58,644 nt of DNA, taken from IMG/VR virus record IMGVR_UViG_3300042691_031580, positions 1-58,644 of that record. One strand, 5' to 3'. The stretch's first letter is position 1. The number at the start of each line of letters is the position of its first letter. The notes below the pieces were generated by a model, which saw only the letters and a program-made list of their open reading frames with translations, had not been told where the DNA came from and did no database searches. Shown here piece after piece: positions 27,293 through 37,050 of this stretch. Position numbers and translations under genes: made by a program. The stretch is from a virus.

Positions 27293-29788
27293 TTAAGCTT
27301 TAACAGCTTTTCGATTAAAATTAGTGTTAAAGGTTGTTGGGTATTGAGCCACAGCCGCTGCTAATTTTTGGCCATCAACATCTATACCAACATGAATTGG
27401 TCTGTTGTTTAAATTATTAATAGCTAAAATAAGTGCTTCTATTTTATTTATAAGAATTGAATTGTCTTGTTGTTGAGAATTTTCTTTTCCTCCCAAATTA
27501 GTACCAGCTATTATTTTTTCACCATTAAAAAATCCTGTGTCTTTAGGACTTAATTGAACACTACCAAATCCTCCGGTTACTACAGGACCTTCACTATAAT
27601 CTATCTCACCATCCTTCATAGAACTTAAATAAGCATAAGCTGCCGCCCCGGCGGCTAAACCTATAGCAGCTGTTACTCCAAATGAAGCAGCTCCAGAACC
27701 GGTCATCTTAGCAACAGCAGTTTGTATTTCAAATGCTTTTATTTGAGCCGCTATTATCAAATCCTGTGCTCTTAAAGCTAAAGATCTTGTTTGCAATAAT
27801 GTTGTAGCAAGAGTAATGGCTTTAATTGTAGTAAAAGCTACCAAAGTTGAAGCTATTAGTTTTTGCCATGTTGTTAATTGTTCTGTTCCTCCTTTAAAAA
27901 TACTAACTATAGATCCCACAACCCCACTAACAGTAGACAATACTGGTAGTAAAATATCGACAAATGGTGAAACAATTTGTAAAACTGGTTCAGCTATAGA
28001 AATAAATATTTCTTTGAGTTTTTCAATAGAAGCATTAAAACGTTCTTGGATAGATTGTTGTTTTAGTTGGCGAGCATATTCTTCATTACCTAACTCTGCA
28101 GCAATTTGAGTATCAGATAATCCTTGTTTTTTTAATCTATTATAAGCTTCAAGTCCTGTTTTATCTTTATCTCCTAATCTAGCTAATGCTTCTCTTTCAA
28201 TTAATGATTTAGCTAAATCTTCTCTACTCATACCAACAGCTTTAGCTATAGCTTCTTGTTGAATACGATTCATTGCTGTAAACTCAGCACTACTTCTTAC
28301 TTGTCTTAAAATTTCAGCTGAAGCTTCAGATACTTTTCCATTTAATGCTAATAACCTAGCACGTTCTAAATTTAAATCTCGACCTGTTAATAATTCAGCT
28401 GATAATTCATTAGAGATAGATGATTCAAAATCTAATAAACTTTCAGATATTCTATCTGCTTGTTCTAAATTAATACCAAACTGTTTAGCTCTAAAAGCGG
28501 CTTTAGCTAAATCTTCGGCTGTTCCACCGATTGATAATCTGATTGCTACTGAAGTATTGGCTACTTCTTTTAATAATTGTTTTTCATTTATTGTTAATTT
28601 ATTTTGAGCATTTAGAGCAGCTGTTACGCCTAAGAAACTTTTAACATTATCCTTTAACGGTTTATCCATAGCTAAGGACATTTTTTGCATACCAATTAGT
28701 TCTTCATTGGTATAGCCTGCCATTTCTCTTAATTCAGTAAATGTTTTAAGATCTTCTTCATTTAATTTAGCATTAGAACCTAATGATTTACCTACAGCAA
28801 CCATTGATTCTTGTAATGATCTTGCATTTAAAGCTATATTTCCTGAAAGATTACCTGTTTCTATAAGTTCTCCTCTTAAGTTAGCAGCTTCATTATATGT
28901 TAAATTAAAATCTTTAGCTAGATTTCCAGTAGCTTTATCTGCTTGTTTGAGTGCTTCAAGAAATTCAAATATAAGATATAGAGGTCCAAATGCTTTAGCT
29001 AAGGCAGGACCTAATGATTTAAGACCAACCATTAATGGGGTTGAAGCTCCAGCTACTGCATTTGTTATACCTAAAGCTTTAGCTCTTAAGGCAGCGCTAG
29101 TTCCAGAAAGAGTACCTAATTTTCCTTGTTTATCAGTTATCCCTAACTGTTTAGCAAATTCAGCTGTTAATCCTTTTCCTGTTTTTAAACTTTCTAATTG
29201 AGCTTTAGTTATGCCCTTAACATTACCAAATATAAGTTGATTTTTAGTAGCTACTTTTTCAGTAGCCTCCGCTGCTTCTTTAAATGGTCCTGAGAATCTA
29301 CTTAATCCTGGTATTTTATTTATAATGTCTGAGAATGCTCCAAACATTTTGGTGCCAATGTATTCATTAATAGGTTTAAGCTCCTCTTTAAGTTTTTTAG
29401 TATTATCTACTATTTCTTGAGATTTAGATATTAATTCATCATAGTTATCTATTAATAATAATAATTGAATTTTTTCAGCTCTAGTGGCAATAGATAGTCT
29501 AGAAGCTATCACTTCTCTTTGACGAGTTAAACCAACTATTTCTTTTTGAACTTGTTGAAGTTTAGATTCAAGTTGTAATCTTTCTTTATAAGAAGATAAA
29601 GACTGTTTACTAGCTTTTGCTAATTCGTCTGTTAAATTTTTAACATTAGAGATAAAAGGTTTAAATCCTTTAGCTGTGTCTCCAGTTAATTTAGATAATA
29701 GTTTAGCATTATTTTTAATTTGTTCTTGTAGAGTTTCAAATGCTATTTTTAACTCAGCAGCAGTTTGACCTAAATTTTCTAAATCCAT
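27293..29788 (-). CDS. Tail tape measure protein, 831 aa
   Basis: A long helical protein. The first 130 residues are coiled coil (KLQQVQKEIVGLTRQREVI), followed by a long Ala/Leu/Lys-rich helical body. Near residue 620 on come hydrophobic, membrane-like segments (FVDILLPVLSTVSGVVGSIVSIF; SFGVTAAIGLAAGAAAYAYL). The layout is typical of tape measures that set tail length and help DNA pass the membrane. At 831 aa it would span roughly 120 nm if fully helical (inference). It lies among tail genes and carries its own late promoter. Confidence 0.82.
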   Translation of the reverse strand: MDLENLGQTAAELKIAFETLQEQIKNNAKLLSKLTGDTAKGFKPFISNVKNLTDELAKASKQSLSSYKERLQLESKLQQVQKEIVGLTRQREVIASRLSIATRAEKIQLLLLIDNYDELISKSQEIVDNTKKLKEELKPINEYIGTKMFGAFSDIINKIPGLSRFSGPFKEAAEATEKVATKNQLIFGNVKGITKAQLESLKTGKGLTAEFAKQLGITDKQGKLGTLSGTSAALRAKALGITNAVAGASTPLMVGLKSLGPALAKAFGPLYLIFEFLEALKQADKATGNLAKDFNLTYNEAANLRGELIETGNLSGNIALNARSLQESMVAVGKSLGSNAKLNEEDLKTFTELREMAGYTNEELIGMQKMSLAMDKPLKDNVKSFLGVTAALNAQNKLTINEKQLLKEVANTSVAIRLSIGGTAEDLAKAAFRAKQFGINLEQADRISESLLDFESSISNELSAELLTGRDLNLERARLLALNGKVSEASAEILRQVRSSAEFTAMNRIQQEAIAKAVGMSREDLAKSLIEREALARLGDKDKTGLEAYNRLKKQGLSDTQIAAELGNEEYARQLKQQSIQERFNASIEKLKEIFISIAEPVLQIVSPFVDILLPVLSTVSGVVGSIVSIFKGGTEQLTTWQKLIASTLVAFTTIKAITLATTLLQTRSLALRAQDLIIAAQIKAFEIQTAVAKMTGSGAASFGVTAAIGLAAGAAAYAYLSSMKDGEIDYSEGPVVTGGFGSVQLSPKDTGFFNGEKIIAGTNLGGKENSQQQDNSILINKIEALILAINNLNNRPIHVGIDVDGQKLAAAVAQYPTTFNTNFNRKAVKA

Positions 29789-29806
29789 TGTCTAAATAAT
29801 TGTTTA

Positions 29807-29815
29807 TTATAAATA
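29807..29815 (-). promoter_or_regulatory. Late-type promoter of the tape measure gene
   Basis: TATTTATAA within CATATTTATAATAAA on the coding strand, 18 bases before the ATG at 29788. Confidence 0.6.
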
Positions 29816-29819
29816 TGAA

Positions 29820-30179
29820 TTATTTATAATTTGTTTTAAGTTTAGCGGCTGGTGAAATAGGTTTAGGAACACTATTCCATGCTTCTTTATTAACATTACC
29901 TGAAGAATCTATCAATGTAGATTTATTTCCTGTTTTAGATTGAGCATTTTCATGTGCTTCATTTTCTTTTTGGTAATGCTCTTTTATCTTATTAAATGTA
30001 AATTGACGTAACCATCTAGGCATATTGTAGACTGTATGCCAGTCATATCCACCCTTACCATGGAATACTATTTCATGGATTTGGGTAAATAGATTAGCAC
30101 GGGCGGTGGGGGCGGTTTTTGGGGTTATGTTAAATAAATTTAATCCCAACGGAACATTAATTATTTTATTTTGCATCAT
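29820..30179 (-). CDS. Probable tail assembly/baseplate protein, 119 aa
   Basis: Residues about 38-62 read GKGGYDWHTVYNMPRWLRQFTFNKI, a pattern (YNMPxWLR) I know from small proteins between hub and tape measure genes in T4-like phages. The C-terminus is polar and Lys-rich. Its start overlaps the stop of the GIY-YIG gene by 14 bases, so the endonuclease gene is wedged directly between it and the gp26-like gene. An assembly-chaperone role is a guess. Confidence 0.6.
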   Translation of the reverse strand: MMQNKIINVPLGLNLFNITPKTAPTARANLFTQIHEIVFHGKGGYDWHTVYNMPRWLRQFTFNKIKEHYQKENEAHENAQSKTGNKSTLIDSSGNVNKEAWNSVPKPISPAAKLKTNYK

Positions 30180-30849
30180 CAGTAAATTTAAATGTATATC
30201 CTTTAATTTGTTTATATATTCCTTTACATACTTTTATAATTGAGGCCGATGGAATATTTAAATTTTTTGAAGCTTGATTAGCACTTTTATACGTGGTATT
30301 AGTTTCTAAACATATGATTGAGTATTTAAATCTACTTTGACTCATATTATCAATATGTTCTTGAGAAAATTTTATACCTAATCTTGCTTCGCTGATGTTT
30401 TTGTTGTGTTTTTGAGTATTTTTAACTCCTAATGAAGATTTAGATATTTTATCTTTAGATAATTGACTCAATTTAGCCCCCAACCTATTTTTATTATCTT
30501 TATTTCTACTTATTCCTTTATTAGCTTTTGATATTTTCTCTTTAGTTTTTTCAGATTTAGGTCCACCTCCACCATCATAAATTTCACAAAATAAGACTTT
30601 TTCCCAACCAAATTTGTTTACGATTTGTTGTTTATAATATATTTCCTTTTCGTTTAATTGTTCAATAGAGCATTCCTCAATAATTTCAAAAATATGATTT
30701 TTAAAACCATATTTTAAAATAGATCGATATATTTTGGGTTGTTTTTTACAATCAAGTAACCTATAATGTATCCATCTTTTTTCAATATTAACGCTCTGCC
30801 CTATATAAATTTTATTGCTAGGAGAAATAATTTTATATATACCTACCAT
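30166..30849 (-). CDS. GIY-YIG homing endonuclease with NUMOD repeats, 227 aa
   Basis: The N-terminal GIY-YIG nuclease is visible (VGIYKI ... KIYIGQS, residues 2-18; WIHYRL; Glu in NEKEIYY). It is followed by Lys-rich NUMOD3-like modules (EKTKEKISKANKG; KDKISKSSLG; HNKNISEARLG; HIDNMSQSRF) and a final NUMOD1-type helix-turn-helix (YKSANQASKNLNIPSASIIKVCKG). A selfish, free-standing homing endonuclease between two baseplate genes. Its start lies 3 bases after the stop of the gp26-like gene; no late promoter is seen here. Confidence 0.9.
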   Translation of the reverse strand: MVGIYKIISPSNKIYIGQSVNIEKRWIHYRLLDCKKQPKIYRSILKYGFKNHIFEIIEECSIEQLNEKEIYYKQQIVNKFGWEKVLFCEIYDGGGGPKSEKTKEKISKANKGISRNKDNKNRLGAKLSQLSKDKISKSSLGVKNTQKHNKNISEARLGIKFSQEHIDNMSQSRFKYSIICLETNTTYKSANQASKNLNIPSASIIKVCKGIYKQIKGYTFKFTDDAK

Positions 30850-30852
30850 TTA

Positions 30853-31578
30853 TTAAAAATCAGGCCAGAAGAAACGAACTGATATAGGGATATCTGTAGC
30901 ACTGCCATTTTCAGTAGTAAAAGTCAGATCAATGTCTGGTTGTGTTTCTTTTATGTGATTTCTTAGTTCTCGTGAGTCTCGGGCTAGTAAGTATTTATCT
31001 ACAAACTCTCGAATTGTTTTAGTTTCTCGATCTCCGTTTACTGATGTTATGATATATTTTAAACGAGTAGATAATTCAGGTGCTGAATTTGGGCTTAATT
31101 TTTTTAATCCTTCTAATTCATTTTGAATTTTTTGTTCATCACCATGAGTTAATATTTTGTATGTGATATTAACACCAGTACTAGGTAATGTATAATCAAA
31201 TTCATTTACTCCTTTAGTTTTAGCAGTAAAGGGTTTATTATCTAATTTTGATAAGTCAACTGTATAATCTTCTCCTCTATATTCAAATGTGTAATCTTTA
31301 CCATATCCTAAAATACGAGCTGCCACCATAATTGCGTTTTTATCGCCGACAATTAAATCGTTATAGTCTATCTTGCTAACAATGAGTGCTTGCAGTAACT
31401 TGTCTAAAACTGTGCCTTTCTGGATATATGTTTGATTGGTTAAGATATCTTCATGTTGAGCAGTCATATATCTCATTTCAATTTTACCTTGAGATAAAGG
31501 ATTGGTTTCAGGATATATTAATCCTTGAGATGGTAATTCGATTATTTCCGTTGGGAAATCGTGTTTTACTTGGTCCAT
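30853..31578 (-). CDS. Baseplate hub protein gp26-like, 241 aa
   Basis: It resembles the T4 gp26 baseplate family: IIELPSQGLIYPETNPLSQGKIEMRYMTAQHEDILTN... (written here in short pieces: ELPSQGLIYP at 17-26, MRYMTAQHEDILTN, KLLQALIV), then GDKNAIMVAARILGYGKDY and a beta domain. Such proteins sit at the hub of the baseplate. A late-motif variant precedes it at 31606-31614. Confidence 0.8.
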   Translation of the reverse strand: MDQVKHDFPTEIIELPSQGLIYPETNPLSQGKIEMRYMTAQHEDILTNQTYIQKGTVLDKLLQALIVSKIDYNDLIVGDKNAIMVAARILGYGKDYTFEYRGEDYTVDLSKLDNKPFTAKTKGVNEFDYTLPSTGVNITYKILTHGDEQKIQNELEGLKKLSPNSAPELSTRLKYIITSVNGDRETKTIREFVDKYLLARDSRELRNHIKETQPDIDLTFTTENGSATDIPISVRFFWPDF

Positions 31579-31605: not shown

Positions 31606-31614
31606 ATATAAATA
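31606..31614 (-). promoter_or_regulatory. Late-type promoter variant
   Basis: TATTTATAT on the coding strand, one mismatch from the late motif, 28 bases before the ATG of the gp26-like gene. Confidence 0.4.
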
Positions 31615-31624
31615 TAATGAAAAT

Positions 31625-31657
31625 AAAGGAGCTCACCAAGTTTAGGTGAGCTCTTTT
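31625..31657 (-). terminator. Intrinsic terminator at the end of the Vsr-like endonuclease gene
   Basis: A perfect 9-bp stem GAGCTCACC/GGTGAGCTC with a 7-base loop. On the minus strand it is followed by CTTTATTTT. The gene's TAA stop lies in the loop, so the last codons are part of the stem. The other strand has a T run too, but no plus-strand gene needs it. Confidence 0.75.
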
Positions 31658-32475
31658 TTAAGCGTTTCTATTATTTGTTGAGGATTATTATTAATATCAG
31701 TTTCCCAAAATCTAAGTAATTTAAAACCGTTGTCTTTAGCCCATTGATTTTTTTGTTGGTCACGTTTAAGATTTTTTTCTTGGGTCTTACATATAGGTCC
31801 TTCTGGGTATTTGTTTGGGTTGCAGTGGTAGAAGTCTCCGTCTATTTCAATTAACGTGTTATAGTTAGGTAAGTAAAAATCATAAAATGCTTTTATTTCT
31901 TTAACATAATATGAATGGGTATTTTCAATATTTTGTTCAAGTAATATATTTTGGAATGTTGTTTCTAATTTGGAAGTATGTATTTTATCTTCTTTTATGA
32001 TTCGTTTCATTGCTGAGTCGCTCATTTTTTGTTTAGTTTCTTTTGATTGTATCCGACCTATACCAAACCCTTTAGGTTTAGGTTTGGGGATACCTTTGGC
32101 TCCTTTAGATATTTTTTTACCTAAATCCGGTTGTTTTCTATTTTCTTTTACTGCTTTCTTTATGTAATCATACTCACCTGATGTAAATTTTTGTTTGCGG
32201 GTTGATATGATTTTTTCTACTCGTTTTGGGTCGTTCCAATCACCCCAATGTCCTTCTTTTCGAGAATGATGACCTACTATAAATTTAAAAAAATCTCCAT
32301 TTTCAGGAGAATATTTAGTTTTTTCACTACAACCACATTCACATAATGGATTTACCCCATTATACTTAACTTGAATAAGATATTCGGGAAATTTAAGTTT
32401 ATGATAAAAAGAAGTATGTTTACTTAACTTCTGCTGTTTATCAGTTTCATAATTACAAAGTTGACATTTAAGCAT
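31642..32475 (-). CDS. Homing endonuclease with zinc finger and Vsr-like nuclease domain, 277 aa
   Basis: The N-terminus has a C2H2-like finger (CQLCNYETDKQQKLSKH, residues 4-20) and a CECGCSEKTK pair. The middle has Lys-rich NUMOD3-type modules (KGIPKPKPKGFG; KETKQKMSDSAMK). The C-terminus is a Vsr/DUF559-type nuclease: YNTLIEIDGDFYHCNP, KRDQQKNQWAKDNGFKLLRFWETDI. I-Bth0305I-type (EDxHD) enzymes share this domain. The gene sits between tail tube and gp26-like genes and has its own late promoter inside a hairpin (32480-32516) and its own terminator. Confidence 0.85.
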   Translation of the reverse strand: MLKCQLCNYETDKQQKLSKHTSFYHKLKFPEYLIQVKYNGVNPLCECGCSEKTKYSPENGDFFKFIVGHHSRKEGHWGDWNDPKRVEKIISTRKQKFTSGEYDYIKKAVKENRKQPDLGKKISKGAKGIPKPKPKGFGIGRIQSKETKQKMSDSAMKRIIKEDKIHTSKLETTFQNILLEQNIENTHSYYVKEIKAFYDFYLPNYNTLIEIDGDFYHCNPNKYPEGPICKTQEKNLKRDQQKNQWAKDNGFKLLRFWETDINNNPQQIIETLKKELT

Positions 32476-32479
32476 AAAG

Positions 32480-32516
32480 AATCCTCCTCATTTATTATAA
32501 ATATACGAGGAGGATT
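32480..32516 (-). promoter_or_regulatory. Hairpin hiding the ribosome site, with a late promoter in the loop
   Basis: On the coding strand AATCCTCCTC (32516-32507) and GAGGAGGATT (32489-32480) form a perfect 10-bp stem. The 17-base loop GTATATTTATAATAAAT contains the late motif TATTTATAA at 32503-32495. The right arm carries GAGGAGG, a strong Shine-Dalgarno sequence 7 bases before the ATG at 32475. Read-through transcripts should fold and hide it; transcripts starting in the loop should not. Confidence 0.75.
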
Positions 32517-32546
32517 TAAGATTGGTCTGGATTGTTGCTTTTTTAA

Positions 32547-33035
32547 CTAGAAGTTTAAAATTGCGTAATCAAGTCCCAGATTTACTGTTATTTCTTGAGC
32601 AGTTGCATCATTATCCCAATCGTAGTCACCAAAACTAGTTGATTTAATAAATGCTCCTTTAATAATCCACTCACTAACAATATCACCTACTGGACCTAAG
32701 ATATTGATAGTTACATCTTTTTTATAAAAATCTGAATAACCATCTCTACCTGTAACAGATTCATGATGTAAACGTACCCATTCCATTACGGCTTGAGCAC
32801 CTGATGGAGTGATAGGATCAAATAATGTCATTTCAATATCTGCCCATTTAGCTCTACCTTTGATTTTACGGTAAACATTAATATGGTTTAATTTAATTTC
32901 GTCCATATCTACGCTTACTTGGCCTACTTTTTTAATAGTATAGGCGGGGATTCCATCTACATACATAATGAAACGGTTTTTAACTTTCGGTTCAAATGCT
33001 GTGAAAAATATTTCGTTTGGATCTAATACTGCCAT
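32547..33035 (-). CDS. gp19: Tail tube protein gp19-like, 162 aa
   Basis: Forms the inner tube of the contractile tail. The family pattern is visible: FEPKVKNRFIMYVDGIPAYTIKKVG, ... KIKGRAKWADIEMTLFDPI, a WVRLHHESVTGRDGY loop, and a final beta run ITVNLGLDYAIL. The length equals T4 gp19. It sits next to the sheath gene, as expected. Confidence 0.9.
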   Translation of the reverse strand: MAVLDPNEIFFTAFEPKVKNRFIMYVDGIPAYTIKKVGQVSVDMDEIKLNHINVYRKIKGRAKWADIEMTLFDPITPSGAQAVMEWVRLHHESVTGRDGYSDFYKKDVTINILGPVGDIVSEWIIKGAFIKSTSFGDYDWDNDATAQEITVNLGLDYAILNF

Positions 33036-33056: not shown

Positions 33057-33065
33057 TTATAAATA
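33057..33065 (-). promoter_or_regulatory. Late-type promoter of the tail tube gene
   Basis: TATTTATAA followed by CAAAA on the coding strand, 21 bases before the ATG at 33035. Confidence 0.6.
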
Positions 33066-35483: not shown

Positions 35484-36359
35484 TTAATTATTGTTTATAT
35501 TATTTACTACTTGCTCAGAGATAGCTATCTCTACTACATCTGGGATTTGTTTAGGGATTGTTGTATCTTTTTGTATTAAGTCTGGAATGATATGACCGTT
35601 CATTTTAATAGAAAAAGTACTACTTACTGTTCTCTCTTCTTTATCTGCTAACTCAGTTTTAATAGCAAATGAATCAATCATAGCCCTAAATTGAAAACGT
35701 GATGGATCACCCCAATATGAATCAGAAGCATATTCAATTGCTTCAACAATCTTATTTAATTGATCCATATAGTATGTATTGATAGCACAACTATATGTTA
35801 CTGTTATATAATCAGGAACTACAACAGCGTAATATTTTTTTTGAGGTTTGATATTATTCAAAACACCAAAATTATCATATGCATTTTTAGGACTATAATT
35901 TTTACCCTGTACAGATATGTTATGAGGATTATTAGCGTCTAACTTATTAGCTACAGATCTTATTTTTTCAATATTATCTCTTTTAAACATAATAATAGGC
36001 ATCATAATTCTGCCTTGAGAGTCTCTGAAATATCCAAATTTTTGAAATGAAGCCCACTTTTCTGGTGAACCATAAATTATAGGCACTTCTATTCTTTCTC
36101 CGTTTTGTATTACAAATGGTCTAATTACATTTACAAAATAATACATAATAGCCTCATCAATATCTTGAATACCTATTGAAAATGGTTTTGTAGTATCTCC
36201 TCTAAATGAAATTTGATCACCTCTATTAGGTATATTGGCTTCATTTGGGTTTCCGGTAGGAGAAAAACCAGGTGCTCCTGCCGGTGGAATATACGGAGTT
36301 TGCTGAGAGATTAATATCTCTTTTTGTGTTTTAGGTATTGGTTTTCTTCCTTTAGACAT
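35484..36359 (-). CDS. gp15: Tail terminator/completion protein gp15-like, 291 aa
   Basis: It matches the order of T4 gp15: after a Pro/Gly-rich start, DIDEAIMYYFVNVIRPFV and RIEVPIIYGSPEKWAS (about 90-105), VPDYITVTYSCAINTYYMDQLNKIVEAIEYASDSYW, then ERTVSSTFSIKMNGHIIPDL. gp15 caps the tail tube and sheath. Its start overlaps the stop of the GIY-YIG gene by 8 bases. Confidence 0.78.
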   Translation of the reverse strand: MSKGRKPIPKTQKEILISQQTPYIPPAGAPGFSPTGNPNEANIPNRGDQISFRGDTTKPFSIGIQDIDEAIMYYFVNVIRPFVIQNGERIEVPIIYGSPEKWASFQKFGYFRDSQGRIMMPIIMFKRDNIEKIRSVANKLDANNPHNISVQGKNYSPKNAYDNFGVLNNIKPQKKYYAVVVPDYITVTYSCAINTYYMDQLNKIVEAIEYASDSYWGDPSRFQFRAMIDSFAIKTELADKEERTVSSTFSIKMNGHIIPDLIQKDTTIPKQIPDVVEIAISEQVVNNINNN

Positions 36360-37050
36360 TTTGTGATATATATTTAAATATAAAACCTCTACATGTTTTG
36401 TATTTTCCCCCTAAATGGAGTCTCATATTAATTTCATGTACTCCTATATATTTAGCCGCTTTTTTAGCAGAATCAAACATATTAAGTATATTTCCTTCTT
36501 TATCAAATTGGGATACCGGTTTTTCTTTTGTTTTACCTATTTTTTCACCTGTACCCAATGGTAGTGGTACCCCTATTTTTGCTTTACTTAATTTTTCTCC
36601 AAATCCTTCTGGTTTGGATTTTCCTTTTAATAATTTACTATGGTTTTCTCCAAATCCTTCTGGTTTGGGTTTTCCTTTTAGAATTTGGCTTTTTTTCTTT
36701 TTAGTTTCTTCACTATCTTTTTTCCCTAAATGGGATTTACTCATTTTTTGTTTAGTTTCATCACTACATGCTCCTCTTCCATTACCTAATCTTAAATTTA
36801 AACCGCTTTTACCTAAAACACCATAATGTGATCCCCAATATATTTCTCGCTCATTTAATTGTTCTAAGCTACATTCTTCAATTATTTCAAATATATGTTG
36901 TTCCCAACCATATTTTTTAAGAGAATTAAGAAGTTTTGGTTGTTTTTTACAATTATATGTTTTATAAAAATTAGTTCTTATTTCAATTTTAGTAGATTGC
37001 CCAATATATGCTTTACCCTTAGGATTAGTTATTTTATATATACCTATCAT
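36352..37050 (-). CDS. GIY-YIG homing endonuclease with NUMOD repeats, 232 aa
   Basis: GIY-YIG nuclease (IGIYKI ... KAYIGQS; Glu in NEREIYWG), then repeated NUMOD3 modules (DETKQKMSKSHLGK, EETKKKKSQILKGK), three near copies of KPEGFGE-type spacers, and a NUMOD1-type end (NMFDSAKKAAKYIGVHEINMRLHLGGKYKTCRG). Its N-terminus resembles the enzyme at 30166-30849 closely (both have LKKYGW/LKYGF and IFEIIEECS.EQLNE.EIY), so the two likely share a recent ancestor. It is inserted between the gp14-like and gp15-like genes. Confidence 0.9.
   Translation of the reverse strand: MIGIYKITNPKGKAYIGQSTKIEIRTNFYKTYNCKKQPKLLNSLKKYGWEQHIFEIIEECSLEQLNEREIYWGSHYGVLGKSGLNLRLGNGRGACSDETKQKMSKSHLGKKDSEETKKKKSQILKGKPKPEGFGENHSKLLKGKSKPEGFGEKLSKAKIGVPLPLGTGEKIGKTKEKPVSQFDKEGNILNMFDSAKKAAKYIGVHEINMRLHLGGKYKTCRGFIFKYISQNV

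Follow-up and report, generated by a model that had tools for sequence, protein, structure and literature searches.

Hairpins that cover the ribosome site of a phage homing-endonuclease gene and contain a promoter of their own are described for I-TevI, I-TevII and I-TevIII of T4 in those parts of PMC2988022 and PMC3014915 that deal with these genes. These are intron genes in early/middle transcription units, the ribosome site lies in the 3' arm, RNA from the internal promoter lacks the 5' arm, and the outcome is early/late timing. Ribosome-site hairpins also accompany the free-standing homing-endonuclease genes segB of T4 and mobE of Aeromonas phage Aeh1 (PMC2988022, passages on these genes), and for the T4 genes e, soc and 49 a long RNA is folded and silent while RNA from an internal late promoter is translated (PMC3014915, corresponding passages). 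With I-TevI/II/III, segB and mobE, the principle is already known.

The locus described here shares with I-TevI, I-TevII and I-TevIII a homing-endonuclease gene, a ribosome site in the 3' arm and a promoter whose RNA would lack the 5' arm, but the gene is free-standing beside a late structural gene and encodes a Vsr-like nuclease, the promoter has another motif, and in distant homologues it is the start codon that is hidden and the RNA is predicted to be leaderless. In being free-standing it resembles segB and mobE, which differ in nuclease family, host and site, and for which the relevant passages of PMC2988022 present no compensatory data across families; it differs from e, soc and 49, which are the phage's own genes, in encoding a mobile nuclease. 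Novel here are the form that hides the start codon, with its predicted leaderless RNA, the occurrence of the device across nuclease folds in phages of Bacteroidota, and the evidence from compensatory changes. The initial annotation of this DNA had proposed an I-TevI-like switch; the literature supports that precedent, the anatomy holds, and the proposed mechanism is supported in large part, though it needs correction. The reach of a classic T4 regulatory trick now includes another lineage of phages and nucleases of Vsr-like, GIY-YIG and HNH-like type, and compensatory mutations found in nature take the place of the usual mutagenesis.

The nuclease gene and its hairpin

Within the window (the whole stretch of viral DNA analyzed, 58,644 nt), a homing-endonuclease gene encoding 277 aa occupies 31642..32475 on the minus strand, as identified by Pfam, alignment, fold matching and the comparison of occupied with empty sites. 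The protein has an N-terminal zinc finger, a weak NUMOD3 match and a C-terminal Vsr/DUF559-type domain (DUF559/MTES_1575 in Pfam), and acidic and His residues are conserved in the alignment. Sequence-only profile matches to the PDB were weak (E 0.25-0.7), and the nuclease was placed by fold search instead, in which a model built from 14 homologues (pLDDT 77.6) matched Vsr (1cw0, E 8.6e-4) and I-Bth0305I (3r3p, TM 0.76 over the target). The modeled nuclease has the Vsr/I-Bth0305I fold; it resembles I-Bth0305I in this predicted nuclease-domain fold, but identity is 18-19%, and here a zinc finger is present at the N terminus and the gene occupies a phage tail-tube site. The Vsr-like assignment of the initial annotation is upheld by these matches. 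A correction to it is that unrelated nucleases encoded by free-standing genes were already known, from segB and mobE, to employ the device. A search of genome contigs recovered seven distant nuclease relatives and no host; a Bacteroidota host is suggested by the nearest isolate only. The window also contains a tRNA-like gene at 2872-2943, with an unreadable two-base anticodon according to ARAGORN.

The element preceding the gene reads AATCCTCCTC-GTATATTTATAATAAAT-GAGGAGGATT-CTTT-ATG (32516-32473, minus strand). Its 5' arm AATCCTCCTC (32507..32516), which co-varies with the 3' arm in homologues, and its 3' arm GAGGAGGATT (32480..32489) form a perfect 10-bp stem around a 17-nt loop, GTATATTTATAATAAAT (32490..32506), and the loop contains the promoter motif TATTTATAA at 32495..32503 (core ATATTTAT at 32504-32497). 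Four nucleotides, CTTT, separate the 3' arm from the nuclease ATG at 32475, and the Shine-Dalgarno-like GAGGAGG within this arm ends 7 nt 5' of the ATG. The promoter inside the hairpin and the ribosome site in the 3' arm were both features of the initial annotation, and the observation is confirmed. The 41-mer RNA folds at -17.9 kcal/mol, as compared with -5.5 +/- 2.0 for shuffles (z -6.1); the identical hairpin is predicted in a 131-nt read-through RNA context, and it cannot form in RNA from 32493 onward. Its stem score of 27.5 is the best around any promoter-motif site in the window (next 18.5), and the top score of 3000 random window positions was 26.5. A tract containing ATCCA at 32517-32540, about 22 nt 5' of the loop promoter, is conserved at many occupied sites.

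The window contains 16 copies of the motif TATTTATAA where 6.3 are expected, mostly just 5' of minus-strand genes, and from these positions we infer that it is a late promoter; a literature search found no paper on Flavobacterium phage promoters. The spacing between ATAT[T/G]TAT and the ATG is sharply bimodal in the window and L189-L251 (contigs G001-G010): 56 genes have 4-6 nt, no gene has 7 nt, and a second peak lies at 14-16 nt. Genes with the shorter spacing are most readily interpreted as leaderless, which would make such genes numerous in Bacteroidota T4-like phages, and on this reading RNA would start about 4-6 nt past the motif. Promoter-to-ATG distances accordingly place the predicted start of the nuclease RNA at ~32492-32490, beyond the 5' arm; motif position and distance histogram agree on this predicted start downstream of the arm. 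A separate case of a motif within a repeat precedes an 831-aa gene (27293-29815), where a 9-bp inverted repeat composed of A and T only, TAAATAATT..AATTATTTA, contains the promoter motif immediately 5' of the ATG.

Compensatory changes in the stem

The initial annotation had suggested comparing related phages for compensatory changes in the two arms, and such changes were found. The close group comprises 13 distinct sequences, including three with a GIY-YIG gene; L014, with a loop one base shorter, was excluded from the final alignment because MAFFT misplaced the gap. Over nine pairs, 100% of cells are paired, and 8/9 pairs have changed on both sides, which is matched by 0/500 shuffles; a control with a slid partner gave 44-58% paired. 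The arms themselves vary, from CCTCCTC/GAGGAGG to CCTTTC/GAAAGG and CCCTCTCG/CGAGAGGG. A distant group, whose proteins are about 35% identical, has the arms ATTCCCAT/ATGGGAAT, with the start codon inside the 3' arm; here 97.7% of cells are paired and three pairs are double-changed, and coding changes from MGIF to MGNF or MEFF are mirrored in the non-coding 5' arm. These patterns show that the pairing of the hairpin is selected.

A Shine-Dalgarno sequence hidden in the stem, as had been proposed, is found in close relatives, but in homologues of about 35% identity it is the ATG that is hidden. It follows that blocked initiation, rather than Shine-Dalgarno hiding, appears to be the conserved feature. 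With 4 nt between motif and ATG, the distant group is predicted to make a leaderless RNA starting at the ATG within the 3' arm.

Freely varying arms also bear on whether the inverted repeat is instead a DNA-level operator, for instance for autorepression by the nuclease, with no role for RNA structure. I-TevI represses its own promoter too, according to the passages on it in PMC2988022, inverted repeats can bind dimers, and the conserved ATCCA-containing tract 5' of the hairpin is possibly an operator or activator site. An operator is nonetheless very improbable as an explanation of the repeat: arm sequence varies while pairing holds, including through G-U pairs, and the layout is common to unrelated nucleases, whose arms differ in sequence.

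Insertion at the tail-tube locus and the source of the transcript

The nuclease lies in the 3' intergenic region of a tail tube gene (T4 gp19-like; 32547..33035, minus strand), whose own promoter motif TATTTATAA at 33057..33065 (minus strand) is of the same class as the hairpin promoter. All of the 80 nuclease homologues fetched from viral contigs directly follow a tail-tube gene. Natural empty sites, represented by tube relatives without the nuclease, have the order tube stop, intrinsic terminator, promoter and next gene, with the terminator directly 3' of the tail-tube gene; the isolate Flavobacterium phage immuto has the same layout. In the window, an intrinsic terminator (GAGCTCACC..GGTGAGCTC, then a T-rich tail; 31629..31653, minus strand) is found at the far end of the nuclease gene, with the nuclease stop codon within the terminator loop and the last codons and stop formed by the terminator. 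The promoter motif (31608..31616, minus strand) of the next gene, a baseplate-hub-like gene at 30853-31578, is retained 3' of the insertion. Since the tube terminator is now 3' of the nuclease, comparison with the empty-site layout indicates that a mobile nuclease gene, equipped with a promoter hairpin of its own, entered between the tube gene and the tube terminator. The promoter-in-hairpin is present at 53/56 distinct nuclease-occupied tail-tube sites versus 2/50 empty sites, and at two of the three occupied-site misses the hairpin surrounds a different promoter-like motif, TATATTTG. This comparison, together with the covariation, rules out a chance origin of the hairpin.

Hairpins that have outlasted loss or replacement of the nuclease, i.e. 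fossil insertions, were seen in L183 (2791-2819), L175 (2332-2362), L116 and L117; the leftover hairpins of L183 and L175 carry T6, the start codon of L183 has changed from ATG to ATT, and L116/L117 retain a comparable hairpin that lacks the promoter. In L098, L102, L108, L112, L114, L133 and L141 the tail tube gene is followed by a terminator with a promoter-like loop, GAGCCCTC-cTATTTATTAg-GAGGGCTTTTTT, and this GAGCCCTC/GAGGGCTTTTTT terminator lies about 10 nt 5' of a gene of 168 aa with no hit in Pfam.

Because the insertion displaced the tube terminator, the hairpin might be mainly a replacement intrinsic terminator for the tail-tube transcript, with the loop promoter starting the nuclease RNA and the overlap with the ribosome site being incidental. 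Some copies (L002, L049, L130) have a T-run after the stem, a T-rich spacer there is compatible with termination, and persistence of the hairpin with T6 in L183 and L175, where the nuclease is gone or replaced, and without the promoter in L116/L117 would fit a terminator. The window hairpin, however, is not called as a terminator, whereas the displaced tube terminator is; in L011, L013 and L016, ACTTTT after the stem breaks the T-run while perfect pairing is kept; and the 3' arm holds a Shine-Dalgarno-like tract or ATG in nearly every copy, neither of which termination needs. We regard termination as the main role as possible though rather doubtful; some of the copies that carry a T-run probably terminate the upstream transcript as well, and both roles can coexist.

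The preferred reading is a free-standing homing-endonuclease gene with a self-contained module, in which the promoter lies inside a hairpin whose 3' arm is the translation start region and which blocks read-through RNA; we consider this highly probable. RNA entering from the tail-tube promoter would contain both arms and fold, so that ribosomes would be blocked from the nuclease start, while RNA begun at the loop promoter would be missing the 5' arm and would be translated. The hidden element would be a Shine-Dalgarno-type sequence in close relatives; in distant ones it would be the start codon, and the mRNA is predicted to be leaderless. This silencing of read-through but not loop-initiated RNA is deduced from the arrangement of insertion site, hairpin, loop motif and compensated pairing. 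With the upstream gene under the same promoter class, and the tube gene cut off from its own terminator by the insertion, the likely benefit is uncoupling, whereby nuclease output would be kept independent of a tail-tube message presumed to be abundant.

A timer of the classic I-TevI type, in which read-through RNA of the early or middle stage is kept silent and translation is confined to late RNA, has an architecture that fits the T4 cases as set out in parts of PMC2988022 and PMC3014915. The nuclease gene, however, sits among structural genes with the same motif (tube, sheath), so that read-through RNA would itself be late, and no early promoter was identified upstream of the hairpin. A timer is thus unlikely, and the I-TevI-like reading of the initial annotation needs correcting on this point: with the same promoter motif at the tail-tube neighbor, the switch is better read as one of which promoter made the RNA, rather than early versus late. 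The predicted blocking of read-through RNA by the module suggests that mobile nucleases beside abundant structural genes need insulation from the message of their neighbor.

Spread among nucleases and translation initiation

A pattern scan of viral contigs, on DNA only, gave 28 stretches, among them the same hairpin 5' of GIY-YIG genes flanked by sheath and tube (L167, L171, L180). An HNH-like gene at the tube site of L130/L131, called by eye from a His-rich N-terminal motif and without a Pfam hit, has the same hairpin layout. Six of the 28 stretches (L173, L174, L178, L181, L182, L185) represent one shared sequence with no nuclease start, and L165 likewise has no nuclease start following; these were set aside as unrelated or chance.

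In a gene survey of 11 contigs (1346 ORFs, called by a simple method), hairpins that hide the start and enclose the motif preceded, at the strictest threshold, 15/46 nuclease-labelled genes versus 12/1300 others (p 1e-16), and 7/38 nuclease-labelled genes when the tail-tube family was left out (p 3e-7), with all thresholds in agreement; the genes are not fully independent, and these p-values are indicative. Some of the 12 others resemble, by eye, missed mobile genes (GIY-YIG-like, zinc-finger/HNH-like, intein-bearing PhoH-like and TnpB-like), and several non-nuclease matches are A+T-only repeats, which were not counted as support. The promoter-in-hairpin thus appears to be a general habit of nucleases in related Bacteroidota phages. 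Many nuclease genes are without the device, including the GIY-YIG gene of the window at 30166-30849; contig G003 has no motif-centred stem scoring at least 21 at 309 sites, and isolate immuto has no nuclease-led match at 144 motif sites, with one weak stem only. Both further GIY-YIG/NUMOD homing-endonuclease-like genes of the window differ in their start regions: that at 30166-30849 lacks a hairpin and begins 3 nt beyond the preceding gene, and that at 36352-37050 has a promoter 6 nt 5' of the ATG and is without the strong form of the device.

As the initial annotation had noticed, the GAGGAGG of the nuclease is the strongest Shine-Dalgarno sequence of the 62 window genes (pairing -11.5 kcal/mol), and it ties for third among 1192 genes in 11 related contigs. 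In these contigs Shine-Dalgarno sequences are nearly absent, with 2.2% of genes at or below -6 versus 0.8% in shuffles. Bacteroidia ribosomes normally ignore Shine-Dalgarno sequences, the anti-Shine-Dalgarno being sequestered in a bS21-bS18-bS6 pocket, and ribosomes without bS21 use strong Shine-Dalgarno sequences (PMC9976891); in F. johnsoniae, according to parts of PMC6847099, initiation is tuned by mRNA structure, which favors the reading of the hairpin as a block to translation. Because such ribosomes normally ignore it, GAGGAGG may be a stem arm only; otherwise it may be read by special ribosomes. A phage bS21 gene is present in two contigs with an ATG-hiding nuclease hairpin (G004:C1:87246-87404 and G005:C1:76666-76812), and none was found in the Shine-Dalgarno-type contigs examined, a small sample of mostly fragmentary contigs; that bS21 is encoded in ATG-hiding-type contigs and not in Shine-Dalgarno-type ones is only a hint.

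Nucleases of unrelated fold in Bacteroidota T4-like phages may converge on, or exchange, the promoter-in-hairpin module. Translation would then depend on the promoter of origin of the RNA, and the module could deliver either of two interchangeable products: a Shine-Dalgarno mRNA, a rarity in hosts with ribosomes that normally ignore such sequences and one that bS21-lacking ribosomes perhaps read, or a leaderless mRNA with its start codon in the arm; we see the chances of this wider scheme as evenly balanced. The combination of a rare strong Shine-Dalgarno sequence, a host normally blind to Shine-Dalgarno sequences and many predicted leaderless genes offers a handle on translation start in Bacteroidota phages.
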